Below, piece after piece: positions 3,052 to 64,000 of a DNA stretch of 64,000 nt (position 1 is its first letter; each line of letters starts with the position of its first letter). Both the position numbers and the translations under genes were made by a program. The notes below the pieces were generated by a model that did no database searches, was not told the origin of the DNA, and saw only the letters and a program-made list of their open reading frames with translations. Source of the DNA: Duncaniella sp. (lineage in GTDB: Bacteria > Bacteroidota > Bacteroidia > Bacteroidales > Muribaculaceae); assembly GCA_023664955.1 (NCBI GenBank), contig JAMPEV010000001.1, positions 159,765 through 223,764 on the forward strand, in the 5' to 3' direction.

Positions 3052-3083
3052 AAAAAATCCGGGCTGGAATCAATCTCCAGTCC
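3052..3083 (-). terminator. Terminator of the LEA-like lipoprotein gene
   Basis: The stem GGGCTGGA/TCCAGTCC (one G-T pair, seven-base loop) at 3061-3083 is followed on the minus strand by a run of six T (3057-3052). It lies 40 bp after the stop codon at 3123. Confidence 0.8.
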
Positions 3084-3122
3084 AGATTATTATTCATGCA
3101 ATTACCAATTTTCTATCCTGCT

Positions 3123-3674: not shown

Positions 3675-3783
3675 AATTTTAATAATAATTGTACCTTTGA
3701 TCGATATGCCAAAGCATATTCTATAATAATGCACAGTTACGTTAAAATGTTCACAGAAATTAGGCACTAATAAAACAACAAGT

Positions 3784-6700
3784 TTATTTTTCAGCTACTA
3801 CAGCAAGCTTCTTGGACATTGATGAGCTTTTAGTTTCACCTTCGGCCACAGATTCGGCCGTAACTGTGACACAGTAGACGTAAATTCCGGCTGGAACACG
3901 CGCTCCATTGTTTCCTGCCAAATTCCACTTAACTGGACTTGCTACATACATTTCGGACTTTCCCTGACTCTCGGAATGCCACACCCTATTGCCAGCTATA
4001 TCATAAACCTCAATTCTCACCTTCAGCATGGCATCAGGACGATTATGAACAACATAGAAATTTGCTTCCACCGACACAGGATTGGCATCAGTGTGAACGT
4101 CAAATATCTTAGGTGCCTGCTGGGGATCTACAAAGAATTCCACCTCCGCCTCCGCTGAATTACCACCGACATCCCATACCTTCAACTTTGCGCTATGGTA
4201 TCCGGACGTCAGTTCAGGCATACGATAGCGAATCTCCCCCGCAGGCACGCCCCTGTCATCCGGGTAATAACTCGGCACTAAATCGGTAAACACCTTGTCA
4301 CTATCAATAGTCAACGACATGGCACGCCCTACTCCACCGGCCGACATGTTTATCCCCACATTATCACTCACACGAGCAAGCAACATTGGCTCGTCGTTAA
4401 CTTTATCACCTTGCCGGAACGACTCATGATTAAGATAAATATACTCTATCACAGGAGCTACGGAGTCCATCGATGCCCCCTCATCTAAACCATAGATATA
4501 AAAATTGCGGTTAACACCGGCTGCTTCCATGCACCCGTCTTCAGATAAAGCATACATACTCATAGCGGCATTTCGGAAATTATTGGAGATCTCCCCCGGG
4601 ATGGGGACAGAGATTTTAAATTCCCCGTTGACTACCATCGTACGCCCTGCAAAGAGTCGGTCACCCTGTTCATCATATACCACTTCGTCGCCATCTGCTC
4701 CGTTACCCTTCGTTATGTAGCTCCTTTCAGCATCGTAGACGGAAATATCCATCATACCATTAAACAAGCCGACCTTTCCACCTCCTACGTCCCGTACACT
4801 GCCACATAACTCTGCAATGTGCATCCCGTTAATGACAATCTGCGCCTCACCATCTGCAGCCTCACCATCCACTGAATCTAACTGAATCCTTAATTCCGGC
4901 ACGGCAAGCCGCATAGCAGGGTCGCCAAGAAGCACATATCTAAGTTTATTATCATCCCTTATCTGGTTTTTTGCCCTCCGGAGCAACTCGCCAATCGGAC
5001 GAATTCTTCCTTCCCCGTCACGACTTGACAACTCTCTGCCAAGGGCTGATGTAAGCATGCCATTTCGCGCCATCAGCACCTTTCTGACAGCCGAAATACC
5101 CGCTATTACACCACCACTCTCTCTCATCACTAACTGTTCCAGGCCCGATACGGCAACTCCATCCCACTTGCCAAAATCACACGTCGCTCCCATAAACACC
5201 GGCGGACGTCGCAGGTAAAGCCGAGCCAAATCTGTTGATGTGAAAATTCCCTCCGATGTGAATGAATTGATATTTGCATGACCTATATAGTTCCACCATA
5301 CAACACCCTCATCCAACAGTCGATAGAGTTTTTCGCGGGCTTCCTGATATACGCCGTCACGGAGTTCATATGTATCAATGTAAACCTTTTTGAACAAGAA
5401 TGATTCATGCAAACTTTCATCTCTATTATCTTCACCTCGAATCGCACACTCCAATTGGTCCGATTGTCGTAAATGCAATCCATTGTCACCATCATCCGCA
5501 AGAAGGAGAATCTTATTCCGCCATTCCCCGGCTGGTGCCACTGTGACATATGCGACTAACCGATCAACATAATTCTTTGCCTCAGTCAAATTATGCGCAG
5601 GAATACGCCCCACTGTCACTTCCATCTCCTCTCCACCAGCCATAATCCCGGATCCGTCTGCGAGAAAACACATCGGGTCATCACTGCAGAATGAGCTGTT
5701 CTCACTAATGCACATGTCACTTTGCCACGTAGGGAGGCTCGTATCACGGCTTTGCCGAATTGCTTCCGTGAGCCGTCTATGATCGTGGGTAACGGAGCCT
5801 ATGAGAAGGAGGTGTTGTAGTTTTCCTCTGGTTGCAGATGCTTTATCACGGTCATAGAACATTTTCATCATCTTACGTATGGCATTGACATCTGCCACTC
5901 CAGAACCAAATTCATTAGCCACTTCATCCATAGTAACCACAATCACACTCATACCATCAACATCCTCGTGCAATCGTGCCACTCGCTCCGCCTCGCTCAA
6001 TAGTTGCGGATGTGTAACTATCACCATATTTGGCACTTCTTCACCATGGATATTCTGATTTAGCACCTGCCCGGCATAATCAGGAGTGAAGAAATTCGCA
6101 TCCTCATTCCAAGCAACATAGCTCCTAATTCCATAATTAGGATTCTTCCACCCCACCCCATCGCTGACCGACGCTGTGTTCATTTTCACTATTGAACGGG
6201 GGTGCGTCACATCCCATATACGGGTGTCTGTCGATGCCCCTTTGAGTCTAAGGGAGGAGGATGATGTTGAAAAGCTGAGCAATTTATCATCCGGAAGGGT
6301 TAATGAGCGCGTATATGTGATTGCAATATTATCGAGATGGGCAAGAGTGACCGTTCCGCTAACAGAGAGCCGCATCCCCAATGCAAGGTTAGCACCAAAG
6401 ACAGGGAATCGACAGTGAATCCGACAAGTATCCCCATAATCAGAATGAGAAGTCATGGCTCTCTCACTACCCGATATTGTAGCACCGTTGGCACTTAGCA
6501 TCCATGTGGCAGGACCGGAAACTGTCTTCGCATAGAACACAGCATCCACTCCTACATCAGTACCTTCAACTCTGTTCGTTAGCTTGAAATCGAGCGTCCG
6601 CGACGGGGTAAACCTGAAATCCTCACCCAAAAGCTGATGTCCACTCTCCGCGGGACTCACCATCTCCAGTTCATGATAAATACGCTCCTCAAACTTATTA

Positions 6701-7140
6701 TCAAGGCTTTTCTCATCAAGTTCAGTTATACCATCAACCGGAATAGGTCTTCCACCTATATCAGTTTCCGTCAGAAAATAATACCCCTTTATGGAATAAG
6801 GATTCAACTCCGGTCCGACAGCATAAAATACTATTCCCTTATCAGTCAATTCACTCTGCACCCGCGGCAAATCATCAACATAATTCTGCAAGGTCAGGAT
6901 ATCCGGTATACGTCTGCCACCATAACCGAAGACCCCCACACTCTCAGGTGTTGTAAAACCCCATTTCCTCAATTCAGAATTGGAGATAAGATACAGACCT
7001 GTCTTGACAACACTTATTTTTACCCACCGGCCCGAACTCAACGCAGATTTCTGAGCGTATGAATCCACGCCAAACGCCCATGCGCTCAGTGTTGAAACCG
7101 CCAGCATTAGTAGTACAATATGCCGCAAGATACCGATCAT
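3784..7140 (-). CDS. porU: Type IX secretion system sortase PorU
   Basis: 1118 residues, full length for the family. PorU is a gingipain-like (C25) cysteine peptidase on the cell surface that removes the C-terminal signal of type IX cargo and links it to the outer membrane. Seen here: a signal peptide (1-23), an N-terminal beta domain, then the caspase-like core with catalytic His621 in YIGHANINSF and Cys654 in GATCDFGKWD. The conserved VLLGDPAMRL follows. The C-terminus (GNNGARVPAGIYVYCVTV) is a FlgD/CTD-like Ig fold. It lies 17 bp after the WYL gene, so the two are probably co-transcribed. A functioning type IX system is implied, although porV and the motor genes are not in the window. Confidence 0.95.
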   Translation of the reverse strand: MIGILRHIVLLMLAVSTLSAWAFGVDSYAQKSALSSGRWVKISVVKTGLYLISNSELRKWGFTTPESVGVFGYGGRRIPDILTLQNYVDDLPRVQSELTDKGIVFYAVGPELNPYSIKGYYFLTETDIGGRPIPVDGITELDEKSLDNKFEERIYHELEMVSPAESGHQLLGEDFRFTPSRTLDFKLTNRVEGTDVGVDAVFYAKTVSGPATWMLSANGATISGSERAMTSHSDYGDTCRIHCRFPVFGANLALGMRLSVSGTVTLAHLDNIAITYTRSLTLPDDKLLSFSTSSSSLRLKGASTDTRIWDVTHPRSIVKMNTASVSDGVGWKNPNYGIRSYVAWNEDANFFTPDYAGQVLNQNIHGEEVPNMVIVTHPQLLSEAERVARLHEDVDGMSVIVVTMDEVANEFGSGVADVNAIRKMMKMFYDRDKASATRGKLQHLLLIGSVTHDHRRLTEAIRQSRDTSLPTWQSDMCISENSSFCSDDPMCFLADGSGIMAGGEEMEVTVGRIPAHNLTEAKNYVDRLVAYVTVAPAGEWRNKILLLADDGDNGLHLRQSDQLECAIRGEDNRDESLHESFLFKKVYIDTYELRDGVYQEAREKLYRLLDEGVVWWNYIGHANINSFTSEGIFTSTDLARLYLRRPPVFMGATCDFGKWDGVAVSGLEQLVMRESGGVIAGISAVRKVLMARNGMLTSALGRELSSRDGEGRIRPIGELLRRAKNQIRDDNKLRYVLLGDPAMRLAVPELRIQLDSVDGEAADGEAQIVINGMHIAELCGSVRDVGGGKVGLFNGMMDISVYDAERSYITKGNGADGDEVVYDEQGDRLFAGRTMVVNGEFKISVPIPGEISNNFRNAAMSMYALSEDGCMEAAGVNRNFYIYGLDEGASMDSVAPVIEYIYLNHESFRQGDKVNDEPMLLARVSDNVGINMSAGGVGRAMSLTIDSDKVFTDLVPSYYPDDRGVPAGEIRYRMPELTSGYHSAKLKVWDVGGNSAEAEVEFFVDPQQAPKIFDVHTDANPVSVEANFYVVHNRPDAMLKVRIEVYDIAGNRVWHSESQGKSEMYVASPVKWNLAGNNGARVPAGIYVYCVTVTAESVAEGETKSSSMSKKLAVVAEK

Positions 7141-7157
7141 CCTATAATCTGAACACT

Positions 7158-8060
7158 CTATGGTTGTGGCTCATACTGCGCCAATGTATCCCTAAGAGAA
7201 GTGATGACCATCGCCCTTAACTCCGGTGGATTTACCACCTTTACCGAAGGTCCAAATGAAAGTAGCTCCCTGACAAAGTCATCTGTAAGTCGTAATTTAT
7301 AGTAAAATAGGGAATACTCATCATGCACCACCTCTCGCTGAGAATGATGGAGTGGCAATGTGCGAAGATATTTCGATTGGCGACTGTCTGCTCGCAATAT
7401 CACCTCTTTCGGCTCGCCCTGCGTATAAACTATCCCAAACGTATCACTGACATAGCTCTCAAGGTCGAAAGTATCATCAACATCAAATGTGTCGTCCTCT
7501 ATCTTCACCTCCTCCATACGGTCAAGGGCATAAGTCTTAATCTTATTATCCTTGACATTCCGCCCGGTCACATACCATCGCTGGCGGAATATTTTAAGGA
7601 AATAGGGTTCGATAACCACATCAGGCGTGGCATTGATTCGGGTATATGGACGATAGGTGAAGCGTATGGAATGTCTACCTCGCAGTGCCGAAATTACTTG
7701 GGAAAGGAAGAGTCGTGCCGAGGGCACATCCTCAAGGAATATCCTATCCGAAACATCGCTGACACTCGCCAGGACATTACTCATCGCCGCTGAATTGAGC
7801 AGCCAGTCGGTCATGCTTTCCCTGCGGTCATCACCCGAATCTATATAGTATTCGTAGGTTGACGTGTTACATTCTATGTTGATATTGAACAGCTCCTCAA
7901 TAGCCATCCGGTAATTATAGAATGTGCGTCGTGGCAACGGTTCCCCTTCGGAATACGGGGAGAAAATCCACAATTCATTCAGCTTTTCGCGTGTGATTGT
8001 GCCATATCGCCTGATTGTGTCAATGAGCCATATATATCGTCCAAGTAGATTTCGAGCCAT
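7158..8060 (-). CDS. WYL-domain transcriptional regulator
   Basis: 300 residues. The N-terminal 70 or so residues (RYIWLIDTIRRYGTITREKLNELW) look like a winged helix. The WYL domain follows from about residue 125 (RHSIRFTYRPY, PYFLKIFRQRWYVTGRN, TYALDRMEEV), where the usual W-Y-L is represented by RWYVTG. WYL proteins are ligand-sensing regulators, and some bind single-stranded DNA. It sits between nhaC (30 bp) and porU (17 bp) in a tight minus-strand run, so it may control them, but its operator is not recognisable. No CRISPR or other defence genes are adjacent. Confidence 0.88.
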   Translation of the reverse strand: MARNLLGRYIWLIDTIRRYGTITREKLNELWIFSPYSEGEPLPRRTFYNYRMAIEELFNINIECNTSTYEYYIDSGDDRRESMTDWLLNSAAMSNVLASVSDVSDRIFLEDVPSARLFLSQVISALRGRHSIRFTYRPYTRINATPDVVIEPYFLKIFRQRWYVTGRNVKDNKIKTYALDRMEEVKIEDDTFDVDDTFDLESYVSDTFGIVYTQGEPKEVILRADSRQSKYLRTLPLHHSQREVVHDEYSLFYYKLRLTDDFVRELLSFGPSVKVVNPPELRAMVITSLRDTLAQYEPQP

Positions 8061-8090
8061 GTCCTGATTTTAGATTTTAGGTTTTTGATG

Positions 8091-9428
8091 TTAGTTTTTA
8101 GAGGTTCTTTTTTGCTTCGCAAGATAACGCGGGTACTGGAACAGAATCGACAATAGGATCATCAGCGCAAGCACCCACGGATAATATAAGTAGGGGAAGG
8201 GTGATGCCGGCGAAATTCCTGCAAGAGAGGTGGCAAGCAGCGTCTGTGCCCCGTAGGGTATGAGACATTGCACCACACATGATGCCGAGTCGAGCAACGA
8301 TGCGCTTTTGCGCGGGTCTATTCCATAGCGTTCGCTCACATCCCGTGCAATTCCTCCGACGGTTATAATCGCCACCGTGTTGTTCGCCGTGCATAAATTA
8401 ACAAGCCCGACCAGAAGAGCAAGCACACTCTGTGCCCCCCTTGTGCCTGATATATGAGCTGTCAATGTTTGAAGAAGGTACTGAATACCACCGGCGGCTT
8501 TAATCAATCCCAACATTCCTGCTGCAAGAAGGGTTATGATGATCAGATTTCCCATCGAATCGATTCCGCTGCCCATTAACCCGGCAAGCTCAATCATCGA
8601 ATGTCCGTCAATAATCCCCATAACCAAAGCAGTGACAATACCGAGCGATAACACAACTGTCACATTGATTCCTATCACAGCCGTGACTATCACAATAATA
8701 TAAGGAAGTATCAACCAAGGATTTGAGTAATATATCATTCGTATCTCTGGCGTATCGTCGCTCATGATGATATATGCGCCAAGGGTCACTATCGCAGCCG
8801 GAAGTGCTATCCATAGGTTTGCCTTAAATTTATCGCCCATGTTACAACCCTGCGAACGAGTAGCGGCTATCGTGGTATCGGATATGAACGACAGGTTATC
8901 GCCGAAAAAAGCACCTCCCAACACTACCGCCACATAGAATGGCACCTGCGCGCCGGCCATCTGTGCCATCTCTACTGCAAGAGGTGTCAACGCTACCACT
9001 GTACCCACTGATGTCCCTATCGACAAGGATATGAAACACGATGCGAAGAATAGCGTGGGCACCACAAACTCAGGGGGGAATACCCTCAAGGCAAACTGGA
9101 CTGTGGCATCTACCGCTCCTATCTCCTTTGCTAAAGTGGCAAATGCCCCGGCAAGCACAAACACCCATATCATATATAAGATATTGAAATGCCCGGCAGC
9201 TCGTGAAAATACTTCTATCCTATCGAGCAACGACCCTCCTCGGTAAATCATCACAGCCCAAACCGATGCTACAACCAGCGCCACGCTTATCGGCATCTTA
9301 TAGAAGTCGCCAATAACCACTGACACTGCCACATAAAGAATCAAAAAAAGCATAACAGGCGTAAGTGCCAAGAGACCTTTTGCGGTGGGCACTCGACGGT
9401 TGGTATCTATCGTGGGGATTTCAATCAT
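8091..9428 (-). CDS. nhaC: NhaC-family Na+/H+ antiporter
   Basis: 445 residues with about 11-12 hydrophobic segments. It belongs to the NhaC/ArsB-like ion transporters, which exchange cytoplasmic Na+ for H+ at the inner membrane. Recognisable signatures are SLSIGTSVGTVVALTPLAV, GGAFFGDNLSFISDTTIAATRSQGC and CTANNTVAIITVGG. The family also includes malate/lactate and tyrosine exchangers, so the exact substrate is uncertain. It lies 31 bp downstream of the GH25 gene and 30 bp upstream of the WYL gene. Confidence 0.9.
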   Translation of the reverse strand: MIEIPTIDTNRRVPTAKGLLALTPVMLFLILYVAVSVVIGDFYKMPISVALVVASVWAVMIYRGGSLLDRIEVFSRAAGHFNILYMIWVFVLAGAFATLAKEIGAVDATVQFALRVFPPEFVVPTLFFASCFISLSIGTSVGTVVALTPLAVEMAQMAGAQVPFYVAVVLGGAFFGDNLSFISDTTIAATRSQGCNMGDKFKANLWIALPAAIVTLGAYIIMSDDTPEIRMIYYSNPWLILPYIIVIVTAVIGINVTVVLSLGIVTALVMGIIDGHSMIELAGLMGSGIDSMGNLIIITLLAAGMLGLIKAAGGIQYLLQTLTAHISGTRGAQSVLALLVGLVNLCTANNTVAIITVGGIARDVSERYGIDPRKSASLLDSASCVVQCLIPYGAQTLLATSLAGISPASPFPYLYYPWVLALMILLSILFQYPRYLAKQKRTSKN

Positions 9429-43069: not shown

Positions 43070-44422
43070 ATGGATAATAGTAACTTTAAACCAAAGATTG
43101 CCATTGCTGCATTATTCGCCTTGTCAATATCAGCTTGTAGTAACGATGAAGATTTCATTTGTGAAATCGAACATAATCCCGAAATTGAAAATCTACAGGG
43201 TATTCAGCGTGATATCATGATGAATATAGCCTTATCAAAAGCTACGAATGTCAACCAAAAAGGTCCAATGTCAAGAGCTATTAATGACGTGCGACTTACT
43301 CCATACATTCAGGATGGAGATACTATTCTTTATGTCGCTCAATATTCTGATGGTTGGGAAATTTATTCAGGCAGCAGATTGACCAACATGATCCTATTTT
43401 CGTCAGAACATGGAGTTCTTGACTTGAATGAAGATGGATTCCCAGAATCATTGAAGTTCCTCATTGATGCTAATGCAAATGATATAAAATCATTACCGCG
43501 CGAGACGAGTCCCGAACAAGTGCATCCTACATGGGGAGCGTCCTCTGTTACTGATGAAGACCTACGAAATGGCCACATAACTGTAAAAGTAAAATCTCGC
43601 GCCACACAAAGGCGAACTATAAGCTATAGCGACCTCCCTCCGGGACATTGGGAGTGGTATTCGACAGAAAAGTTGGATGAAACAAATGATATCTCTCAGA
43701 AGCTCACAAATACTGAATGGACACAGGATGCACCTTGGAATGAATATTCTAAGAAACTTCTGTTCAACAACGTCTTAACATCAGCTAAGGCTGGATGCGT
43801 ACCAGTAGCATTAGGTCAATATTTCTATTATACTCATTTTAAAGATAATTGTCCTTTAAATACAGTGACGACAGCTACCTCATTACCGGATAATAAAGAT
43901 TTTGTTTTTTCAGGGGAGGATTCGACAATATGGAATGTCATGCCACTTAAAAGTGGATATTTCGGGAATTACGGGGCAGCAGCGATGCTGATTGGAAATA
44001 TTGGTCGTAAACTTGATGCTAATTATGGTTTAGCTTCGACAAGTGTTGAAACTTATAAAATAGCGCCATTTTTACAAAGTATATACGACATATCTTTCCC
44101 CTTAAATGACTTTGATTATTACTATGTTAAACAGTCGATTAATGCCGGCTATCCTGTAATAGCTCATGCCTGGTCAAACATCAAGAATGGAGCAACGATT
44201 AACGGAATAATTGGTCATACTTTTTTGGTCGATCGATATAAAACTACAACTCGAACAATGAAGTATACTTACGTTTATAAACGCGATCCCCTTCCTCCTG
44301 GCACAGAGGATCGGTGGGAAAGCGACGACGTAGATGAAAATGGCAACGTGATCAATTGGGCATATACTAATGAATTCACTAACGAGGTGCACGAAGAAAG
44401 TATCTCTATGAATTGGGGCTAG
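43070..44422 (+). CDS. C10 (streptopain/Spi-type) cysteine protease lipoprotein, interrupted by TAG near the end
   Basis: 450 residues to the stop. A lipoprotein signal ends ISAC (Cys23), then a propeptide (to about 180), then the C10 peptidase domain. The nucleophile Cys243 is in AKAGCVPVALGQ and the His is His383 in IIGHTFLVDRY. The frame stops in NWG-TAG-G (44420-44422) exactly where C10 enzymes have NWGWG. A change of TGG to TAG would explain it. Beyond the stop the same frame stays open for 33 codons with sensible sequence (GHLYNSVYYSPFGNWVYADITFNLEHK) to a TAA at 44522-44524. All catalytic residues remain but the last strand pair is lost. The gene is AT-richer than its neighbours. A serpin gene follows directly. 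Confidence 0.88.
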   Translation: MDNSNFKPKIAIAALFALSISACSNDEDFICEIEHNPEIENLQGIQRDIMMNIALSKATNVNQKGPMSRAINDVRLTPYIQDGDTILYVAQYSDGWEIYSGSRLTNMILFSSEHGVLDLNEDGFPESLKFLIDANANDIKSLPRETSPEQVHPTWGASSVTDEDLRNGHITVKVKSRATQRRTISYSDLPPGHWEWYSTEKLDETNDISQKLTNTEWTQDAPWNEYSKKLLFNNVLTSAKAGCVPVALGQYFYYTHFKDNCPLNTVTTATSLPDNKDFVFSGEDSTIWNVMPLKSGYFGNYGAAAMLIGNIGRKLDANYGLASTSVETYKIAPFLQSIYDISFPLNDFDYYYVKQSINAGYPVIAHAWSNIKNGATINGIIGHTFLVDRYKTTTRTMKYTYVYKRDPLPPGTEDRWESDDVDENGNVINWAYTNEFTNEVHEESISMNWG

Positions 44423-44524
44423 GGACATTTGTATAATTCAGTGTACTATTCTCCCTTCGGTAATTGGGTATATGCTGATATTACATTTAATCTTGAACAC
44501 AAAATGAATAAAAGACAAATATAA
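44420..44524 (+). pseudogene. Lost C-terminal tail of the C10 protease
   Basis: In frame with the protease, 33 sense codons follow the TAG and end with TAA at 44522-44524. The tail resembles the final beta strands of C10 peptidases. It is either the remains of the full-length gene or is reached by readthrough. Confidence 0.65.
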
Positions 44525-44536
44525 ACAATCAATATT

Positions 44537-45778
44537 ATGAAAATTAAACAGTTATTATATTTGTTTTCTCTCTTTGCTACCTTAGTAGCTGGATGTTCCT
44601 CTGATGAGCCGCAAATGGCTGGGAAGGTGGAGAAACAAGAGATAAAACTTGATGTAAAGTCGCGTGCCGTATGTGATAAATTGTCAGATTTCTATATTCG
44701 TTTCACATCTGACGTCCTTAAAATGGAGACTGAGACCGGGAATGTTTCTAATATAATTGTTTCTCCCTTATCAGCGTCCATGGCTCTTGGTATGTTAGCA
44801 AACGGTGTAGAGGATTCAGCTGTACAACAAATATACACGTATCTCGGTACAGATGATATTAACAGTCTTAATAATCTATCGTTGTCATTAACTCGTGAGC
44901 TTCCAGTCGCAGATCAGAAATCCACATTAGCAATGGCAAATTCAGTGTGGTATAATAAAACATTTTCGTTGTGTGATAGATTTAAAACCGTGATGCGAGA
45001 TTATTATGCTCCTGAGATTCAACCTATATCCTTCTACGATGGAGACAAGGCTAAAATCGCAATTAATAATTGGATAGAACGAAAAACCAGCGGCCTTATT
45101 AACAAATTCAACGATTGGATTAGCCCTGATACTGAAGTGATGTTGTTAAATACATTGTATTTCAAAAGTATCTGGGAGGAGGAATTTTTCAAGGAAGTTA
45201 ATACAAGTAACAGAGTGTTCCATGGTGCAAATGGGGATTCCAATGTGGAATTTATGGGATCCTATAAAACAAACTTCATGGTGTCGATTAGTGAGTATTT
45301 CAAAGCTGTAAAGCTCCCCTTTGGCAACGGAGCATTTACTCTTACCATAATAGTCCCAAAGGAATACACAGCGATTAATGACATTGAGGAGAATCTCAAC
45401 TCTAACCAAATAAAAGAATTAAATGAAAATTATTTCAAAAAGGACGTGATAATTAATTTACCCAAATTTAAAATTTCGACAACAACCGATTTAACTAAGC
45501 TTTTAAATCTTGACTGCTTAAGCAGCTTAAAGTGTGCAGAATATACCATTTTTAACGAGACACTTCCAAAACTCATAACTACATTTAAACAAGGGTGTTC
45601 TTTCCAAATAGACGAAAAAGGTGTTGAGAGCGCAGCCGTATCTCAAATTGGGTCTTGGACTTCAGCAAATTTAGGCTCATTACCCGAAAATTGGGTGATC
45701 GATCGTCCTTTTTATTTCTTAATCAATGAATATAGTACCGGCGCATGCCTGCTCTCTGGTAGAATCTCCGACCTTTAG
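44537..45778 (+). CDS. Serpin-family protease inhibitor lipoprotein
   Basis: 413 residues. A lipoprotein signal ends LVAGC (Cys20). The serpin fold is clear: NIIVSPLSASMALGMLANG, NSVWYNKTFSL, NTLYFKSIWEEEF, KLPFGNGAFTLTIIVPKE. The hinge and reactive loop are QIDEKGVESAAVSQIGSWTSANLGSLPENWVIDRPFYFLI, split here as DEKGVESAAVSQ (small residues, so it can insert, an inhibitory type) followed by the exposed loop. By position P1 is probably Ser or Ala in WTSAN, which is inference. Serpins from related bacteria inhibit serine and papain-like cysteine proteases. It starts 13 bp after the end of the C10 readthrough frame, so it may guard against that protease or a host enzyme. Confidence 0.93.
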   Translation: MKIKQLLYLFSLFATLVAGCSSDEPQMAGKVEKQEIKLDVKSRAVCDKLSDFYIRFTSDVLKMETETGNVSNIIVSPLSASMALGMLANGVEDSAVQQIYTYLGTDDINSLNNLSLSLTRELPVADQKSTLAMANSVWYNKTFSLCDRFKTVMRDYYAPEIQPISFYDGDKAKIAINNWIERKTSGLINKFNDWISPDTEVMLLNTLYFKSIWEEEFFKEVNTSNRVFHGANGDSNVEFMGSYKTNFMVSISEYFKAVKLPFGNGAFTLTIIVPKEYTAINDIEENLNSNQIKELNENYFKKDVIINLPKFKISTTTDLTKLLNLDCLSSLKCAEYTIFNETLPKLITTFKQGCSFQIDEKGVESAAVSQIGSWTSANLGSLPENWVIDRPFYFLINEYSTGACLLSGRISDL

Positions 45779-55874: not shown

Positions 55875-55986
55875 GTGGTGTTTTAACATCCTCTTAATAA
55901 TAACAGTCCCAGACTCGACCTTGCAGATATAATGGGAGATTAGCATGACATCGGTCCAACGGACTCAGATGCAGCATAATGTTTCT

Positions 55987-56043
55987 CTACACCCTCCAAC
56001 TCTGAAATGCTCCGATGGGGCATCTCAGCATTGGAGGGTGTAG
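55987..56043 (+). terminator. Long hairpin after the DUF486 gene
   Basis: A 13-bp perfect outer stem CTACACCCTCCAA/TTGGAGGGTGTAG closes an inner arm (AATGC...GCATCT) and is followed by ATTTTGTT. It lies 113 bp after the DUF486 stop, so it may be its terminator. The 57-bp element could equally be a processed RNA. Confidence 0.5.
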
Positions 56044-56160
56044 ATTTTGTTGCAAAGTTATTACTCTTAATGGGTGAAAATAGTGAGAAATATAATAAAG
56101 TTGGTAAAAAACAGAAGCTAAAAAATGAAATGTTAAATTTATGTTTGACAACATTTTTAA

Positions 56161-56191
56161 TTGTAAGATATGAAATAATGTTTTATATTTG
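56161..56191 (+). promoter_or_regulatory. Promoter of the structured RNA
   Basis: TTG (56161-56163, in AATTG), 20 bases, TATATTTG (56184-56191). A start near 56197 is predicted. Confidence 0.65.
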
Positions 56192-56196
56192 TAGCG

Positions 56197-56501
56197 ACCT
56201 TACGCCGTGAGACTTCGCAAGAAGCCGGAACGAGGGAGGTCATTACATAATGAAAGCGTTTACTTACGCTTGATTCTTGACACCTAAGAACTTCGCAAAC
56301 TCTTTGACAAAGTCAGGAATGAAGCAACGGTAGATGCCTTGGGTATGATAAAAAATGCCTTTGGGTGGATTGTATCATTTATGATATTTCCCATAGGAGT
56401 TTCATATATCATACGGCGTAGGCTCTGCGTTGCTCGTTCAACTTTGTTGGGCAATGCGAAGGCCTTTAGGTGTAGGACGAGTACAGATCCTGCGCTTTTT
56501 T
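56197..56501 (+). ncRNA. Structured noncoding RNA, family not identified
   Basis: About 305 nt between a good promoter and a strong terminator, with no convincing reading frame. Stems seen in order: GACCT/AGGTC enclosing CTTC-GCAA-GAAG (a GNRA tetraloop) at 56199-56250; AAGCGT/ACGCTT with loop TTACTT; TTCTT/AAGAA; CTTTG/CAAAG; a long-range GTATGATA/TATCATAC; and the terminal arm GCGTAGGCTCTG/CAGATCCTGCGC, 11 of 12 paired. It lacks RNase P, tmRNA and SRP signatures. Rfam families such as Bacteroidales-1 or 6S-Flavo are possible but not verified. Confidence 0.6.
56416..56501 (+). terminator. 3' terminator arm of the structured RNA
   Basis: Outer stem 56416-56427 with 56484-56495, inner stem CTCGT/ACGAG, then six T (56496-56501). 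Confidence 0.65.
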
Positions 56502-56669
56502 GTTTTACAATGCCTCATGGGGATCGGAGACATAATTTCACAATTAAACACAGTTTGTATCAAAACATGCAAATTTTCGGTAATTAAACTACACTCACCT
56601 TAAAAGAGTCTACCGTAATACATGCTATAAGAAAACGTTTTCAATTAACCGAGTATTTATAATCTACCC

Positions 56670-57584
56670 ATGAGAAAATTTCTACTAATCATATTTTTTA
56701 TTTATCCACTAAGTATTTATGCACAAATACTTAAAGAAAAGCGTGTATATTACTTAGACTGTTCTTATTCAATGGTGTCGAATAAAATATGGGACATAGT
56801 ATGTGATAACTTGAAGAATGCTATTGATAACGTTAATGATGAAACCACGGAACTTGTAGTAATTCCATTTGCATTGAACCACGATGGTGGTATAACAACG
56901 TTCAAAGCGACTGCATCAGAGTCCGGTAAGCAAAAGTTGAAAGATCAGATCTCGTCAATTTCACCAAGTAAAAATTCAATGACTTATCATTTTGTTCCAC
57001 TTCAAGATTTTTATATTAATCAGGTGGATTCATCTAAAGTTACTTATATGTTTTTGATGACAGATGGTCAAGACGAGTACGGAGATAAACATAAATTCCC
57101 TGAAATGCTTCAGAAATGGGGTGAAAATTATGGCGACAAAAATGTTTACGGGTTCTATGTTATGCTACATAAATCTGCTCAAAACAAAGATATCGAAAAC
57201 ATATGTAATACACAAAAGCATCTTTGGAAGGTCGAAACGGCAGATATCAATGTAAATTTAACTCGATTGCATAATAATGCAATATTTAATGCACGCAATG
57301 ATAAATATTTTGATATACCAATCTATGGGAAATCAGATGTTACTTTAAACGCTAAGTTTGAAAATTCATCTCCATATTACGTTAGCAGTACGTCCATCCA
57401 AAATGGGAGATTACGTGTTAATGTAAAATTCAAAGGCGATGTACATCACTTACCTGTATCTAAAGTATATTCTCTTCATGTCGAAATGAAGGATGGTGGG
57501 CAATATGACTTTTTGGTCAATGACGTTATAAGTGTTAAGTGTGAGAGTAAACCAGAAAGGTCATTAAAAATTAATGTAAAATGA
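56670..57584 (+). CDS. Secreted von Willebrand factor A-domain protein
   Basis: 304 residues. A signal peptide (MRKFLLIIFFIYPLSIYA) is followed directly by a vWA domain with an intact MIDAS site: DCSYS (Asp30, Ser32, Ser34) and TDG (131-133), with a Thr near 105. The domain ends near residue 215. The C-terminal 90 residues are beta-rich (KSDVTLNAKFENSSPYYVSS...VHHLPVSKVYSLHVEM), like an Ig-type domain. It is AT-rich compared with genes before 56 kb. It opens a five-gene operon and overlaps the next gene by ATGA. A metal-dependent adhesion or assembly role in the envelope is inferred. Confidence 0.85.
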   Translation: MRKFLLIIFFIYPLSIYAQILKEKRVYYLDCSYSMVSNKIWDIVCDNLKNAIDNVNDETTELVVIPFALNHDGGITTFKATASESGKQKLKDQISSISPSKNSMTYHFVPLQDFYINQVDSSKVTYMFLMTDGQDEYGDKHKFPEMLQKWGENYGDKNVYGFYVMLHKSAQNKDIENICNTQKHLWKVETADINVNLTRLHNNAIFNARNDKYFDIPIYGKSDVTLNAKFENSSPYYVSSTSIQNGRLRVNVKFKGDVHHLPVSKVYSLHVEMKDGGQYDFLVNDVISVKCESKPERSLKINVK

Positions 57585-58465
57585 AGTTTGTAAACATTAT
57601 ATATCTTTTAATAGTACTAACGCTAATGTCATGCGATGACCAATCAGTCTCTTTTGGGAAAGTCGATTCTTACTCAGGTTTTTTATGGAAGGAAGCTAAT
57701 ATCTCACCTGTTAAGAAAACTATCGAATTTGATTTTAGCATAGATGCACAAAATGATAAAAGTTCCTTTGCTGAATTTCAATTCGTAGATAATGATGGTA
57801 CTCCTATCAGTACAAACATCATGCAAGTATATGATGGAGGGCTATTACTAAGTGACAATAAGTTCCGTGTATCAAGTGACGTTAAATCAAAAGAATTAAC
57901 CATTACATTTCAACCGGGAGCATCGGAAGGAAAATATCAGGGATATCTTAAGCTTGTTGACCATAATCTTGATCGATTCGAATCTACCCAACTAAGCCCT
58001 GACGAAGAATTGGAAGTTCTCCAATGGACATTACAATATGATAAGATTATGAATCCCTTGGCAAAGTCGCTTCTTATCATTGCATTAGATATTTTTGCAG
58101 GTCTTTTAATATGGTTTCTAATCTTGCGTCCAACACTTTATCCTCGTTTTGGTAAAATTACTAAATCAATCATAATCAAACAAAATGACACGATAGTTGG
58201 TCAATTGAATTATTCGTTTAAGGGAGCAAGGAAGGTTGTGTTTTATAACAAAAAAATAGACCAATCTATTTGGAATCGTATATTCCTTGGTGAAATAAAA
58301 ACATATGTCAATCCTATTTTTAAGAGTATGCTCTCATTTACGCCAAGAAAGAAAAATGCGACTGTATTTGGGCCCGGGTACACATCATCACCCAATCCTT
58401 TCCCTAAAAATGGAATCGCATCTATTAATAATTATTCAGAAAAATTATCACTAATATTACGTTGA
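57581..58465 (+). CDS. Lipoprotein with an additional membrane helix, unknown family
   Basis: 294 residues. Lipobox TLMSC (Cys18). A beta-rich outer domain (about 25-155) leads to one membrane helix (about 160-183, LAKSLLIIALDIFAGLLIWFLIL), followed by basic residues and a roughly 110-residue inner domain. This layout would link a periplasmic part to the cytoplasm, anchored at both sides. No family is recognised. It overlaps the vWA gene by four bases and precedes the tubulin-like gene by 11 bp. It is well placed to connect the secreted vWA protein with the cytoplasmic GTPase. Confidence 0.8.
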   Translation: MKFVNIIYLLIVLTLMSCDDQSVSFGKVDSYSGFLWKEANISPVKKTIEFDFSIDAQNDKSSFAEFQFVDNDGTPISTNIMQVYDGGLLLSDNKFRVSSDVKSKELTITFQPGASEGKYQGYLKLVDHNLDRFESTQLSPDEELEVLQWTLQYDKIMNPLAKSLLIIALDIFAGLLIWFLILRPTLYPRFGKITKSIIIKQNDTIVGQLNYSFKGARKVVFYNKKIDQSIWNRIFLGEIKTYVNPIFKSMLSFTPRKKNATVFGPGYTSSPNPFPKNGIASINNYSEKLSLILR

Positions 58466-58476
58466 AATAAGTAATT

Positions 58477-61260
58477 ATGGCAATCAAACTTAAAAAAACA
58501 CTTTTTGTTGGTCTCGGAGGTACAGGAGTTTCCGTATTGCTGAAGATTAAGAAGTGTTTTGTAGACAGCTATGGAGAAGTACCGCCTATGATAGGATTTA
58601 TCGCTATTGATACGGATGGGGCTTCTAATAACAAAAGTATAACAAGCAATCGTGGAGAAATCATAAAACTTGACCCCACAGAGTTACTGGTATGTACAGT
58701 AAAAGGCGCATTAAATGTCTATAATGCAAACCCCAAAATTTACGACTGGGTTCCTTCCAAAAATATTGATAAATTATCTTCGATACAAGGGGGCGGAGCT
58801 GGACAAGTTCGTTCTAATGGCAGATTTATTGCATATTACAATAACCAACTGATAAAGAGTAATATTCAAGCAGCTATCATAAAAATACATCAGCTTATCC
58901 CCAAGGATTCAAAATACGAAGTTGATACAAACATCGGCGGATTAGAATATCCAGCTACCGTTAATGTTTTTGCTTCCATAGCTGGCGGTACTGGAAGTGG
59001 CATGCTTGTTGATACATTATGCATAATCAGGTCTGCTCTCAATCAAAATGCACAGGCATTCAAACTTCATCCATGGATAGTGTTGCCAGAGGTTTTTAGA
59101 GCGATGAATCTCGGACCATCTATGTCAAATGTGCTATATAATTCTTACGGTGCGTTACGCACATTGGATTATATAATGCATTACGACCCTAAATCACCAG
59201 CTATTAATTTTGGTTATTCAAAAATTAATGAGGCTTTATTTGATTATGCCTACGTTGTAAACAACACAAATACTGCAGGCATATCTTTCAACAACTTAGA
59301 TGATCTCACGGATGTAATTGCAAAAAGCGCCTTTTTGCCAGCTAACAAGATGGGGGACGATTTGGCCTCGCCATTTGATAACATTGTTGCTCAAAAGATG
59401 GGTGGAACATATGATATCCTCAATAAGAAAGCATGGGCAGCTTCAGCAAGTAGTGCCGAACTTATATATGATAGCCAAGCCGTTGGTCGTGCAAATGCTT
59501 ACGTTGCAATCACTCAACTGTGTAATTCTATGTTGCAATCTCCTACAGATGGGTCAAAAGATGCAAATGCCTTTTTTGATGATCCAGATGTAATGATTAG
59601 AGAAAATAATGGTCGTGATGATATTATAAATGCCCTCTTATCACCTGCTCCCATATATTCTCTTCAGATAGATGAAAACACCACTGAATTTGATATAAAC
59701 TCTTATATTGAGAATAATTGTGGGCAAGCTCAATTAGAGAAGTCTCTAAAAGATGCTCTTTCTGAAAAATTGTCCTCTGCCAATGAGTATTTTGACAAAT
59801 ATATATCTGAGATTATGTCGAGGGCTCAAGGAAAGGTTGATGGGGCCATTAAATTCATACAGGCATTATCTGACATAATCACTATATGTAAGGGCGAAAT
59901 GGAGAATGAAGGGCAAGAATTGCGCACCCTTAATTCAATTCCAACTCAATGGGGAGCAATGCTTAATGCGGTAAAGGTTAAAGGATTAAAGAGCTTCTTT
60001 GGCAAATCTGTCGATGAAGATGCTGTTGAAATTCTTCAAAATAAATTGGTCGAAACAGTAATGAACAAACGCGAAGAAATCCGCCGTTCATGGGCACTTA
60101 AATTCTATACCTGTTTTGAAGAAACCATCAATCAAAAACTTCAGATGATTGAAGGTTTAAAGGCCATACTTATTCAAATAGGTAAGGACAATACTCGAAA
60201 CCTTCTAAAAGAGCAGAATGAATCTTCATCGAAGTCCACATTTCAAATATTCCTGCATGAAAACGATGTCATGGAAGCTTCAAGACTTAATATCGATGAT
60301 GTAGTAAAGGCTAACTTTGTTCAATATTTAAATGGAGGAGTCTCTTCTTGGATAGGGCAGCCAAGGGAATATATTGAGAAAAAATTATGGAACTTCGCGA
60401 AAGAGACACCAAGTGTAAAGGCCGCAGTCAATACTGAGATTGATGATATTTTAAAGAATCTATCTGAAGAGGATGTTAAGAGTTATCTCAAACATCTAAT
60501 GATTCTTGCTTCACCACTTTGGACATACAATACACAGGGATACAATAACACGAACCTACAACTTGATAGATTTGTTATCGTTGGCGTCGGTAACCGCGAC
60601 ACAAGTATTTTGAGCCAGGATGACAAGTACAAAACATTCTTCGATACAAACGGGAATAAAACATCATTTGCTTCTACCAATCAAAACGATAGGGTATACG
60701 TATTAGTTGTGGAAGATCTCTTGCCAATATATGCTGTCAATAATTTCTCATCTTATCAAATGGATAATGATGAAAAGACTACGAGAGGCTTCATGATGGC
60801 TAACTATATTGATGAGAAACTCAATAATCGCATGAACTCCGATAATTTTAGTATGGTCCCAACTATCGAGGCAGATAATGTGCTTCAATACTGGGTGTGG
60901 GGATTTGTCTTTGACTATATTCACTATGATGCGAACGAAAATCAGTATTGGATTCGTTCAAAAAGTCGTGGTGACGCGGTGAGAAAATACAGATTCAATT
61001 TAAGCCATCAGAGAGATGTGGCATTTGATATTTTCAAGAGCGAGGGCTTGTACAAAGAGGTTGAGGAAGGGCTGAACCGTCAAATAGCAAAAAATGGCAG
61101 ACAACCGATTGAAGAAAAGATTGCGAACATAAAGATGGAAGATTCATACTTGGAAGACTATGCCAATTTAAGTCAACTTGAAAAAAGCAATCTTGATGAG
61201 CCAAGATTTAGAGCCGTACGAGACCTTTTATCTCAGGAAATAGGTCTAATGTCTGAATAA
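58477..61260 (+). CDS. Bacterial tubulin/FtsZ-like GTPase (Tubulin_2 type)
   Basis: 927 residues, more than twice the size of FtsZ. The GTPase domain is N-terminal: TLFVGLGGTGVSVLLKIKK (12-17 GLGGTG), IAIDTDG (44-48), GGGAGQVRSNGR (105-116) and the tubulin signature SIAGGTGSGMLVDT (168-180). The remaining 600 or so residues are largely helical with no recognised domain (coiled-coil-like at about 430-480 and 570-610). It lacks a signal peptide and is cytoplasmic. Large tubulin-like proteins of this kind have been linked by comparative genomics with vWA proteins in predicted membrane-remodelling systems. It is third in the operon, 11 bp after the lipoprotein gene and 10 bp before the 745-residue gene. 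Confidence 0.85.
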   Translation: MAIKLKKTLFVGLGGTGVSVLLKIKKCFVDSYGEVPPMIGFIAIDTDGASNNKSITSNRGEIIKLDPTELLVCTVKGALNVYNANPKIYDWVPSKNIDKLSSIQGGGAGQVRSNGRFIAYYNNQLIKSNIQAAIIKIHQLIPKDSKYEVDTNIGGLEYPATVNVFASIAGGTGSGMLVDTLCIIRSALNQNAQAFKLHPWIVLPEVFRAMNLGPSMSNVLYNSYGALRTLDYIMHYDPKSPAINFGYSKINEALFDYAYVVNNTNTAGISFNNLDDLTDVIAKSAFLPANKMGDDLASPFDNIVAQKMGGTYDILNKKAWAASASSAELIYDSQAVGRANAYVAITQLCNSMLQSPTDGSKDANAFFDDPDVMIRENNGRDDIINALLSPAPIYSLQIDENTTEFDINSYIENNCGQAQLEKSLKDALSEKLSSANEYFDKYISEIMSRAQGKVDGAIKFIQALSDIITICKGEMENEGQELRTLNSIPTQWGAMLNAVKVKGLKSFFGKSVDEDAVEILQNKLVETVMNKREEIRRSWALKFYTCFEETINQKLQMIEGLKAILIQIGKDNTRNLLKEQNESSSKSTFQIFLHENDVMEASRLNIDDVVKANFVQYLNGGVSSWIGQPREYIEKKLWNFAKETPSVKAAVNTEIDDILKNLSEEDVKSYLKHLMILASPLWTYNTQGYNNTNLQLDRFVIVGVGNRDTSILSQDDKYKTFFDTNGNKTSFASTNQNDRVYVLVVEDLLPIYAVNNFSSYQMDNDEKTTRGFMMANYIDEKLNNRMNSDNFSMVPTIEADNVLQYWVWGFVFDYIHYDANENQYWIRSKSRGDAVRKYRFNLSHQRDVAFDIFKSEGLYKEVEEGLNRQIAKNGRQPIEEKIANIKMEDSYLEDYANLSQLEKSNLDEPRFRAVRDLLSQEIGLMSE

Positions 61261-61270
61261 TTAATTTAAT

Positions 61271-63508
61271 ATGGCAGCATTCATCGTAATAAGTTCTGAC
61301 AACCGTTTACATTATTTAGTGGATGGTATTGAAAAATGCCGTCCACTAAATCCCGATGTAATAACAGAAATTTCTACAGGAAAGATAACTAAATCAGATA
61401 CAGGATATGTTTATGAATATTCCATACAAGGTGAAGGGATTAGAGGTGATGGAGCAAAATCATTTAGTGACTTGCTGTCTAATCAACTTGCGTCTTTTCG
61501 TTTAGCATATTCTATTCCAAACGATGAACTTGTAAATATCTTTTTTTTAGAGAATCCTTTGACAATAAAAGATGTGGAAGAGTCGGAAGCTTGGTTACAA
61601 GACTTAGACCGATTATTCAATCGTGGTCGAGGACATGATACTGGTTTTTGCATATATCGTATAATATTCACCTATGACCCTGAATCGCCTAACGATATAA
61701 CCAATAAAATCGACCCAATATCTCTAAAGCAATTATTATATAGCCATAAAGCCGCTGCCGCATGCAGTTTGGGTGAAGCAGTAGAGCCAACCTATGAGCG
61801 ATATCTATTTTACATCGATAACCAAAAAAGCGACTCAGCAGCATTGTGCTTGAGAAAGGACGAGCATGATCTAAAGATGCCAAGAATTTTAATTGATTTT
61901 ATGATGCTGGTATCGAGCAGTTCCGATAGATATAACATTGTAGCTGCTATTAATCCGGCACATGTCAACAGTAGATGTTTCTCTGTCGGATATGCGGAAA
62001 GTATGTACTACTATCCTGACGTTGAGAGATATTATATTCATGCTGATAATCGCGACATTAATCATAGGTTCTTATTTTCTGATGATGAGATGTTGAACGA
62101 TGTGGGCTATACTACTATGGATGTTGAAAAATATCCTTTCGGACTCCGTAAACGTAAGGAACGTCTCGGTGTCATTTATGAAAACATACCGTTCTCTGAT
62201 AATATTAATGAACATCCCAACTCAGCGGATTTTAAAATCAACAACTGTATTGTATCACTTAAGGAATATTTCAAGCAAGAAAGGGAAAAGGAGTTTGAGG
62301 ATTTCATGAATTCGCCAGCGATAACAGGACGCAAAGAAATCATTGAGAATTACGAAAAGGAAATTTCTTTATGTCAACCTAAAGAAGATGAGACTTCTGA
62401 TGAGTTCAAAGAAAGAATTAAACGGTTATTCTCAGATAAAGAGAGTATAAGCCAAGAATTGGATTTACAAATAAGAAATTTTGAACCCGACTGTCCTGCA
62501 TACATTGACCGAGAAGAAATATACAATGAGTTATGTGTGACTGAAGAGGATGATAAAGAAACCGCCTGTGATTCTCTATCTACACGATATAACCGATTAG
62601 TGAGTTTTGCAAGATCCAAAAAATTTATGGATTATATTAAAGCGATTGACAATTCTTCATCTATATCAGAAATTCGTTCAAATAACACTAATGGTGAAAC
62701 AAAAAATCACGAAGAGGGCTCTGTTGAAAATCTTGGTTGTTTATTTTCTTGGTTGAAATTTTGGAAGTACAAGCATATCGATAACGACGAATTTCAGAAT
62801 AATGAAAATGCGACTCAGGATCGAAGTGTTAATATAATCAATTATATAACCATCATTAACCAACAAATTCGTTTGAAGAAACGTTTCTTTTCTTTTAAGG
62901 AAGATATTTCTTCTTTAGAACAAAAATATGATGAAGAAAAAAATTATTGCGACAACTTTAAACTCACATTGCATACAAATCATTTTTTCCCTCTAATAAA
63001 CATAAATGAGCTTAAGAGCAAGCACGATGAAACATCATCGTCGAGAATTCAGGAGTCAATAAATTCATGTAATAGAAATAAATCATCTTTTATGAGTGAT
63101 TTGCTCCAAATTGTTAGTGACAGAGCCTCAAAATATACCAAACTACATTATTTGTTTATCGATTGGAAAAATCCATGTTCTTTTGTGCAAACAATATCGG
63201 ATATAAATTTTCCAATAATATGCAATGAACTACAAAAGCGAGCAGCTCCTTTAGCAAATTACAATCTAACATCTGAAGTAAACGAGAATAAAGTTATTAG
63301 ATGCTTTTTTTCTGATAGACCCAATTTTAAAGATGAGTTTGAAAGTGTACGAGCTAAAATTCAAAATGGAAATGAAATATCAGCAACAGAATCAACCCAT
63401 ATAGCATCTAAGATATGCATGTTCCAATTCTTACCAATGGACAATGAAATTATTCAAAATTTGGTTGACCTTCAGGAACCGGATAAAAATGATATGGATA
63501 TCATTTAA
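61271..63508 (+). CDS. Large cytoplasmic protein of unknown family, partner of the tubulin-like GTPase
   Basis: 745 residues, no signal peptide or membrane helix. The N-terminal 330 residues look globular (MAAFIVISSDNRLHYLVDGIE..., FFLENPLTIKDVEESEAWLQ, YIDNQKSDSAALCLRKDEHDL). From about 330 to 640 the chain is charged and helical, coiled-coil-like, with a short hydrophobic patch NLGCLFSWLKFWKYKH near 485-500. I recognise no family. It follows the GTPase by 10 bp, so it is made with it. It might be an adaptor, effector or filament regulator; that is inference from position only. Confidence 0.75.
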   Translation: MAAFIVISSDNRLHYLVDGIEKCRPLNPDVITEISTGKITKSDTGYVYEYSIQGEGIRGDGAKSFSDLLSNQLASFRLAYSIPNDELVNIFFLENPLTIKDVEESEAWLQDLDRLFNRGRGHDTGFCIYRIIFTYDPESPNDITNKIDPISLKQLLYSHKAAAACSLGEAVEPTYERYLFYIDNQKSDSAALCLRKDEHDLKMPRILIDFMMLVSSSSDRYNIVAAINPAHVNSRCFSVGYAESMYYYPDVERYYIHADNRDINHRFLFSDDEMLNDVGYTTMDVEKYPFGLRKRKERLGVIYENIPFSDNINEHPNSADFKINNCIVSLKEYFKQEREKEFEDFMNSPAITGRKEIIENYEKEISLCQPKEDETSDEFKERIKRLFSDKESISQELDLQIRNFEPDCPAYIDREEIYNELCVTEEDDKETACDSLSTRYNRLVSFARSKKFMDYIKAIDNSSSISEIRSNNTNGETKNHEEGSVENLGCLFSWLKFWKYKHIDNDEFQNNENATQDRSVNIINYITIINQQIRLKKRFFSFKEDISSLEQKYDEEKNYCDNFKLTLHTNHFFPLININELKSKHDETSSSRIQESINSCNRNKSSFMSDLLQIVSDRASKYTKLHYLFIDWKNPCSFVQTISDINFPIICNELQKRAAPLANYNLTSEVNENKVIRCFFSDRPNFKDEFESVRAKIQNGNEISATESTHIASKICMFQFLPMDNEIIQNLVDLQEPDKNDMDII

Positions 63509-63574
63509 TTCACATAATCCACATAACTATATGACATATAAATTCTATCCCACATCATTAAAGTATGCAATAGT

Positions 63575-64000
63575 ATGAAGTTGAATGGATGCTGCAAGTG
63601 GATTAAAGGTGTCGGTGAAAGGGGCTGGGATACTTTGAAGTCTGTGAGATTTTGGGTTTCGCAGGGTATATTGTTGTTTATATATCTGTGCATTTATAAT
63701 TATGCCCAGTCGCATAACTTCTTAGAATTTCCACTTCAATTTATGTTGGAAAACGTTGATTCCATACTTTATATATTTGGGTTTTCGTTCTTCTTTATAT
63801 GTAACTTGTTGACAAAAATTCTTTGGCGAAGGTGTGGCTCGTGGGGTGCGTGTTTTGGTAGGACGTTACTTGTAATGATTGTTCTTTATTTAACATACGG
63901 ACAATTGATTCAAGCTCTTTTCTATATTGATGTGGTATATACCATGAATTCACCAAGATTGATATTTTTGGAATTTTATATGATTTTGACCATTCCGAAA
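63575..64000 (+). CDS. Multi-spanning membrane protein, cut by window end
   Basis: The frame opens with ATG at 63575 and stays open for 142 codons to the last base. It contains at least four hydrophobic segments: FWVSQGILLFIYLCIY, SILYIFGFSFFFICNLL, RTLLVMIVLYLTYG and RLIFLEFYMILTI. It follows the 745-residue gene by 66 bp on the same strand and shares its AT-rich composition, so it probably belongs to the same operon. The family is unknown, as the C-terminus is missing. Confidence 0.7.
   Translation, partial: MKLNGCCKWIKGVGERGWDTLKSVRFWVSQGILLFIYLCIYNYAQSHNFLEFPLQFMLENVDSILYIFGFSFFFICNLLTKILWRRCGSWGACFGRTLLVMIVLYLTYGQLIQALFYIDVVYTMNSPRLIFLEFYMILTIPK

Follow-up and report, generated by a model that had tools for sequence, protein, structure and literature searches.

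A tubulin-like GTPase operon with a split vWA–lipoprotein bridge, a protease-less third slot and a structured leader RNA in a Duncaniella genome

Results and Discussion

The operon described here comprises five co-directional genes and lies at the end of a 64,000-nucleotide stretch of Duncaniella sp. (family Muribaculaceae, order Bacteroidales; GenBank assembly GCA_023664955.1, contig JAMPEV010000001.1, positions 159,765 to 223,764, forward strand), hereafter the window. It encodes a secreted vWA protein, a bridging lipoprotein, a tubulin-like GTPase, a protein of 745 amino acids (aa) without family assignment and a small membrane protein (Table 1). Three features are new: the vWA protein and the bridge are fused in relatives, the third slot of the operon is occupied by a protein without a protease domain, and a structured leader RNA without an Rfam match precedes the genes. 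The operon is tentatively interpreted as a horizontally acquired, inducible envelope stress or conflict device under transcription attenuation, an interpretation to which we give slightly less than an even chance. Open reading frame (ORF) calls agreed with the five gene positions of the original prediction, with the last ORF running past the end of the window.

Table 1. Features of the operon and its surroundings, in window coordinates.
Feature	Size	Position	Strand	Basis
Inserted block	8204 bp	55875..64000, on to window-equivalent 64078	+	empty sites in relatives, low GC
TATATTTG, which we take to be a Bacteroidetes-type -7 promoter element		56184..56191	+	presumed from sequence motif
Structured leader RNA with terminator	~310 nt	56193..56505	+	26-copy alignment A6, covariation, fold z, covariance model
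Secreted vWA protein	304 aa	56670..57584	+	signal-type helix 3-21, MIDAS DCSYS, TDG
Bridging lipoprotein	294 aa	57581..58465	+	4-bp overlap with vWA gene; lipobox, outer domain, helix, ~110-aa inner domain
Tubulin_2/FtsZl1-type GTPase	927 aa	58477..61260	+	GLGGTG and AGGTGSG loops, long helical middle
745-aa protein, no family, protease-less third-slot occupant	745 aa	61271..63508	+	profile and library scans
Multi-spanning membrane protein	169 aa	63575..64000, ends 64084 outside the window	+	ORF, helices

The vWA–bridge unit and the tubulin-like GTPase

To compare operons, 58 tubulin loci fetched from family genomes, a part of all Tubulin_2 matches, were sorted into four neighbourhood types, A to D (loci carry L numbers). 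In type A (26 loci), a vWA–bridge unit of about 590 aa stands directly before the tubulin gene in 24 loci. It is fused into one membrane-spanning polypeptide in 23 and split in one; of the two loci where it was not seen, L058 starts near a contig end and L063 has no such gene called. In a 10-protein set, a profile built from 22 fused type A polypeptides matched both window proteins: the vWA protein over positions 7-315 (E 4e-34), the bridging protein over positions 312-551 (E 3e-41). Since the profile of the fused homologues matches both window proteins, the split pair corresponds, on sequence grounds, to a single membrane-spanning unit, and the bridging topology proposed originally is backed by the fused vWA–helix–inner-domain homologues. 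The unit is also split in L076, L095 and L097, and fused in L094. The window bridging protein has a single strong helix (residues 164-182) and a lipobox, LMSC, read by eye.

The vWA protein has the intact metal ion-dependent adhesion site (MIDAS) ascribed to it, with the DxSxS pattern and the TDG motif both present. Alone, it had no vWA match in Pfam, the matches being DUF5068 (E 6.5e-4, below the cut-off) and DUF936 (E 0.16); the fused homologue of L039 gave a weak match to VWA_2 (E 4e-4, below the cut-off). Among 25 vWA proteins (the 23 fused ones, one from L076 and that of the window), a MIDAS-like motif was found by a fixed pattern in 21 and TDG in 25.

The GTPase matched Pfam Tubulin_2 (PF13809) over residues 9-353 with an E value of 2.3e-45, which bears out its proposed assignment to the tubulin-like proteins. 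The N-terminal GTP-binding domain with the T1 and T4 loops is present, and the loop glycines are invariant in the 10-row alignment A3. An AlphaFold model based on four sequences only had a mean predicted local distance difference test score (pLDDT) of 47.4, below 50 over residues 1-331 and too low to show a tubulin fold; its mostly confident part consists of long helices (417-446, 453-487 and 514-584), and this long-helical middle is in keeping, as modelled, with the coiled-coil region described for FtsZl1. Sequence comparison with the PDB gave geminin (E 0.059) and gamma tubulin (E 0.1) as best matches, both weak.

Operon types and the third slot

In 25 of the 26 type A loci, the tubulin gene (~927 aa) is accompanied by a partner of about 1100 aa. 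The one member scanned, from L039, has a papain-like C1 domain (PF00112, E 1.1e-13). Among 18 of the 25 partners that were aligned, the Gln, His and Asn columns of the papain-like site are kept in 18 and the Cys column in 17, the exception being L039, whose Cys is found one position before the column. A crude hydropathy count gave one or more membrane helices in 23 of the 25. Type B (20 loci, L036 and L037 being from one genome) usually has a 3-helix protein, a tubulin of ~1030 aa and several secreted-type proteins, and eight of its loci carry a member of a cluster whose scanned representative has an FGE-sulfatase domain. Two further tubulin-like operon types occur in the same family. Type C (5 loci, L079-L083) has a vWA protein, a tubulin of ~1080 aa and proteins of ~1000 and ~850 aa, the latter transglutaminase-like in the one scanned; type D (7 loci, L084-L090) has a tubulin-like protein of ~550 aa with other partners, among which HSP70-like genes, and TerD-like genes in L089, were seen by eye. 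Partners with transglutaminase-like and FGE-sulfatase domains are in keeping with the peptidase and FGS effectors that have been described for NTP-dependent conflict systems.

The window operon shares with type A the homologous vWA–bridge unit and the tubulin gene, and differs from it in that, judging from the sequences, a rare 745-aa protein and an unconserved 169-aa membrane protein replace the usual papain-like partner. The 745-aa protein was found in four genomes, each time directly after the tubulin gene: besides the window, its relatives are in one other genome among 393 of the order and in three loci in a genome collection, of which L096 is the same place as L094; the collection was scanned with two short peptides, a search that would miss distant relatives. 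It gave no Pfam peptidase match, the profile of the type A partners did not match it significantly, and its AlphaFold model had a mean pLDDT of 43.7, too low for fold searches. The idea that this protein is related to the protease protein and arose by trimming was considered and set aside, the evidence being suggestive only: profile comparisons were colinear and weak (probability 5-7%, E 0.005-0.0075), rising to 53% (E 1.4e-4) when the 770-aa protein of L144 was added as a bridge. The protease-family profile matched that 770-aa protein with E 6e-5 and, in a different region, a type C protein with E 7.5e-5, both in a small protein set.

The gene after the 745-aa protein varies. In the window it encodes the 169-aa membrane protein; in L095 and L094 it appears by eye to encode, respectively, a zinc-ribbon protein carrying HExxH and a J-domain membrane protein, and in L097 no co-operonic gene is apparent. 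The more distant operon of L144 has a fused vWA–bridge, a tubulin, the 770-aa protein and a 119-aa four-helix protein. The 169-aa protein matched nothing else in 237 loci above chance level (lowest E apart from its own, 0.4), and for this reason it is not regarded as a core part. As to whether the five genes travel together, the vWA–bridge unit and the tubulin gene do so in 24 of the 26 type A loci, the 745-aa protein accompanies the tubulin gene in the four genomes where it was found, and the membrane protein does not travel with them. In these few cases the operon resembles a constant core joined to an exchangeable end, an organisation comparable to that of the conflict systems of Kaur et al.

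Structure of the leader RNA

The leader RNA was not part of the original prediction. The window copy has a fold z of -5.55 (100 shuffles) and scored 322.6 bits with covariance model R1, among whose training copies it is included. None of 4227 Rfam families reached its gathering threshold in the window leader, and in five further leader-bearing loci the Rfam scan matched just two RNAs, a tRNA and a cobalamin riboswitch, neither of them at the leader. Alignment A6 (26 copies, 360 columns) yielded a predicted consensus fold of 61 pairs, 19 with compensatory change, and in 25 of the 26 copies CCTGCGC followed by a T-run forms the end.

Two structures, a long-range form and a terminator form, were named after a helix search on the same alignment, so that the covariation counts lean towards them. 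The long-range form covaries strongly: 98.3% of cells are paired and 17 of 40 pairs show two-sided changes (shuffled mean 11.5, reached in 0/500 shuffles), with 113 two-sided-change cells versus 33 in shuffled alignments and a covariation score of 0.360 versus 0.149 when shuffled (0/500) and at most 0.085 when slid; pair types occur in an unremarkable number (62/500). The terminator form, with 99.0% paired cells, is mostly invariant and for that reason receives modest covariation support, namely 7 two-sided cells versus 2.8 (0/500) and a score of 0.067 versus 0.052 (0/500), with 496/500 for pair types. In the competing pairings, columns 267-272 have 146-151 or 323-328 as partner, and columns 250/251-258 have 11-19 or 339-346; in L175 all three segments of the trio 146-151/267-272/323-328 are changed together. 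A conserved terminator, a conserved pairing that excludes it, a U-run and a nearby start codon are thus found in the sequence, as in an attenuator, and the leader is a candidate transcription attenuator in which switching is suggested by the covariation.

Diverged leaders, whose central hairpin differs and reads by eye as CTCACGC plus a GCGTG arm, were observed at L056:12159-12387 (-) and L148:10326-10574 (-). Their nested stems and terminator are apparently the same, and they are possibly a subclass.

No published description of the leader appeared among the papers listed in literature searches. A check of the available text of two RNA surveys for the terms Bacteroid-, Prevotella, Muribacul- and Porphyromonas gave no mention. 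The part seen of a 2010 RNA survey includes Bacteroidetes motifs, of which Bacteroides-2 and GUCCY-hairpin carry no Rfam number, and the leader may be identical to such a published motif. As with the crcB and T-box attenuator leaders, in the accounts of these that were available, a terminator overlaps a mutually exclusive fold ahead of the start codon; unlike them, this leader belongs to no Rfam family and precedes many dissimilar accessory genes.

Distribution of the leader RNA

By DNA similarity the leader was found in 276 of 397 family genomes, its own included. A search of 374 order genomes that started from another copy gave 16 with the leader, 12 of which lie outside the family. A covariance-model scan of 71 sources that contain tubulin loci or relatives (1.18 Mb, the partial duplicate L037 omitted) returned seven copies at E <2e-7, the next value being 0.33. 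Six of the seven lie immediately in front of a tubulin operon and run in its direction. These operons are of type A in L040 and L056, of type D in L089, and of type B or B-like in L033, L074 and L148, the last being from another family. The chance of six such placements among seven is about 3e-13, a rough value that assumes uniform placement. The leader-to-operon distance is 38 bp in L148, 56 bp in L040, 58 bp in L056, 161 bp in L033 and 165 bp in the window; the first start codon after the leader is uncertain in L074 and L089. L033 has the seventh copy as well, ahead of a gene for a secreted-type protein of 1526 aa. At L095 a match lies exactly at the leader place with E 3, which is no evidence.

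The genes that follow the leader were surveyed in 70 copies, namely the second copy of the own genome, the 29 next best and 40 taken by rank, one per genome, some being near-identical (as L155 and L169). The downstream ORF was readable in 64, and in 59 of these a co-directional start, set mechanically, follows 6-200 bp past the U-run. In the region G000:C19 (L155) 318-8937, minus strand, the second own-genome copy is upstream of a putative operon that, by eye, encodes HSP70, a fused kinase–AAA+ protein, membrane and coiled-coil proteins and a TerB-like protein; a weak third copy (E 5e-6) precedes short ORFs of no evident kind. A RhuM fragment and a cobalamin riboswitch were also observed near the L155 leader.

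Protein families were compared between two sets of 89 proteins. The downstream set was cut from 107 by leaving out 18 genes that were distant, on the opposite strand or second in order; the upstream set was cut by hand from 123, the 34 removed being mostly short or second genes. Among the first 25 of 75 downstream Pfam families were GmrSD, NERD, JAB, KAP, caspase and methylase, and also LRR_5 (4/89 proteins) and Big_2 (2/89), while HSP70, kinase, E2 and HerA-like genes were named by eye. The first 25 of 128 upstream families are mostly housekeeping, with some mobile or defence families. In L188, L192, L198, L206 and similar loci the leader lies ahead of apparent BspA-type leucine-rich surface proteins and lipoproteins. 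The view of the leader as a mark of defence genes alone was rejected, with PADLOC giving 115 families downstream versus 153 upstream and no excess.

Probable acquisition of the inserted block

The block lies between a small membrane-protein gene (ending at 55874) and a convergent core gene (3' end at 64079) straight after the 169-aa gene, presumably of the peptidase-U32-like kind, which is kept in 27 of 27 searched genomes of the genus. The surroundings of the site were inspected in 16 of 26 other same-genus genomes: in seven (L110-L115 and L125) the site is empty, with both flanking genes adjacent and 8-214 bp apart, and in nine the neighbours are different. The GC content of the operon is 0.32-0.375, versus 0.458 for window positions 1-55874. 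Tubulin_2 is patchily distributed: of 397 family genomes, 56 (the own one among them) have a match above the Pfam cut-off and 72 a match of any strength, none of the 72 being another same-genus genome; at least 20 same-genus genomes are without a match. Because of the empty site, the low GC and the lack of another same-genus Tubulin_2 match, the block was most likely acquired by horizontal transfer, as had been suggested from composition.

No integrase was noticed beside the block in ORF lists read by eye, and its ends were not systematically searched for repeats. Recent carriage as phage or plasmid cargo was rejected for the collections searched. A tblastn search with the GTPase gave six plasmid records and one 9.8-kb contig, unannotated and labelled as phage; no match extended over more than 35% of the GTPase. 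A scan of viral contigs gave one remote locus. An exact 19-mer of the leader had no match in viral contigs, and the 745-aa protein had no match in plasmids (phages were not searched with it).

Comparison with described systems

Membrane-remodelling systems of FtsZl1 and vWA were predicted in 2010 by Makarova and Koonin (PMC2875224), in whose FtsZl1 alignment, in the part of the paper available, Bacteroides caccae appears and the T6-H7 elements are given as not confidently identifiable. As the GTPase is of the FtsZl1 kind that these authors linked to vWA, the core association of a tubulin-like gene with vWA, borne out here, was already known. So far as that source was available, the window operon resembles these systems in its Tubulin_2-kind GTPase with a helical middle, its vWA gene and its lineage-specific extra genes, and differs in its split lipoprotein bridge, 745-aa partner and leader RNA, and in that no P-loop GTPase, kinase or OmpA family was matched in the four window proteins scanned. 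No experimental study of FtsZl1 systems was found in the literature searched, which lacked most subscription papers.

The tubulin theme of the DO-GTPase/GAP1-N2 systems (Kaur et al. 2020, PMC7159879), in the part of that paper available, likewise combines tubulin with vWA, which may be extracellular and borne by a membrane protein, and is reported from firmicutes and actinobacteria only. The window operon differs in having no DO-GTPase, GAP1 or FNIII family match; P-loop DO-GTPase and GAP1 gave no Pfam or NCBIfam match in the four larger proteins, in libraries that were not checked for GAP1 models.

Proposed function and alternative explanations

In the proposed device, transcription would start from the -7 element and by default end at the terminator of the leader. 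A signal favouring the competing long-range fold would let RNA polymerase read on into the operon. The periplasmic vWA protein would then bind a partner via a metal at the MIDAS, the lipoprotein, which by homology forms a unit with the vWA protein, would relay its state across the inner membrane, and the GTPase might assemble on the inner domain of the lipoprotein. The third component would be the output, which in most relatives is a papain-like-domain protein with predicted membrane helices. Here the 745-aa protein and the small multi-spanning protein occupy the output place, and most simply would be an adaptor and a membrane-acting effector.

An inducible conflict or envelope-stress role is favoured over housekeeping since the leader is shared with conflict and stress genes and the partners in relatives are of papain, transglutaminase and FGE-sulfatase type. 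The fused homologues, the patchy distribution of Tubulin_2, the covariation of the long-range fold and the presence of the leader at other tubulin operons of types A, B and D also speak for the proposed device. The leader itself has, in our estimation, an even chance of being an undescribed Bacteroidales class of regulatory RNA that governs, by antitermination, a regulon of acquired operons (tubulin–vWA operons of at least three architectures, HSP70/kinase–AAA, JAB/E2, restriction-type and surface-protein operons). If so, one signal would turn on many conflict and envelope genes. The leader would also be a handle, as the signal that releases the terminator would tell when tubulin systems act and which other operons respond. 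A concrete topology in the membrane can be read from the fused homologues, and the protease-bearing relatives suggest an output.

Several observations weigh against this interpretation. No effector domain was detected in the 745-aa protein, and the best PADLOC match among the four operon proteins scanned was that of the vWA protein to PDC-M13C (E 0.0016). A clear leader stands at the operon in just 6 of the 71 scanned sources. In the RNA, two-sided changes occur in just 2 pairs of the terminator form (43/500 shuffles reach that), helix 11-19/250-258 is conserved without two-sided change, and the window leader keeps the second terminator stem in part, with ACGAG and without the rest of the 320-328 arm. 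By PADLOC matches, the genes on the two sides of the leader cannot be told apart, and many copies stand before surface or lipoprotein genes; for these two reasons the leader is taken to mark accessory genes and not defence alone.

The leading alternative, considered unlikely and still the best of those weighed, is a membrane remodelling or vesicle machine, in which GTPase filaments bend the inner membrane via the bridge and the vWA protein is the outer anchor, as proposed in 2010. The published gene-context prediction and the bridging topology speak for it; the papain-, transglutaminase- and FGE-sulfatase-type partners suit an executor more than a shaper, and the operon is patchily distributed and was most likely transferred. 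Distinctly less probable is an accessory role at the surface or in adhesion, under the same kind of regulation as the BspA-type surface proteins, whose genes also carry the leader. vWA domains frequently bind adhesion ligands, and the leader also precedes LRR_5 and Big_2 genes, but the GTPase is cytoplasmic, relatives have protease-type partners, and no outer-membrane or secretion gene was recognised in the operon.

That the window copy is a decayed, non-working variant which has lost its protease is improbable. The missing protease domain, the shortened leader stem and the lack of conservation of the 169-aa partner among the compared loci would fit decay, but the five frames, the GTPase loops and the MIDAS are intact, and the protease-less arrangement recurs in four genomes, two of which have proteins just 31-33% identical to the 745-aa protein of the window. 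It is most improbable that the leader is a non-regulatory structured end of the mobile element that brought the operon in: although the operon was transferred and the leader lies inside the block, the two-sided changes of the long-range pairs, the terminator at the 3' end and the co-directional start codons shortly downstream in most readable copies argue for regulation.

Other AT-rich genes of the window

Two further window genes (43070-45778) are nearly as AT-rich as the operon, with a GC content of 0.37-0.39. They adjoin each other and by eye resemble a C10-type cysteine peptidase and a serpin.

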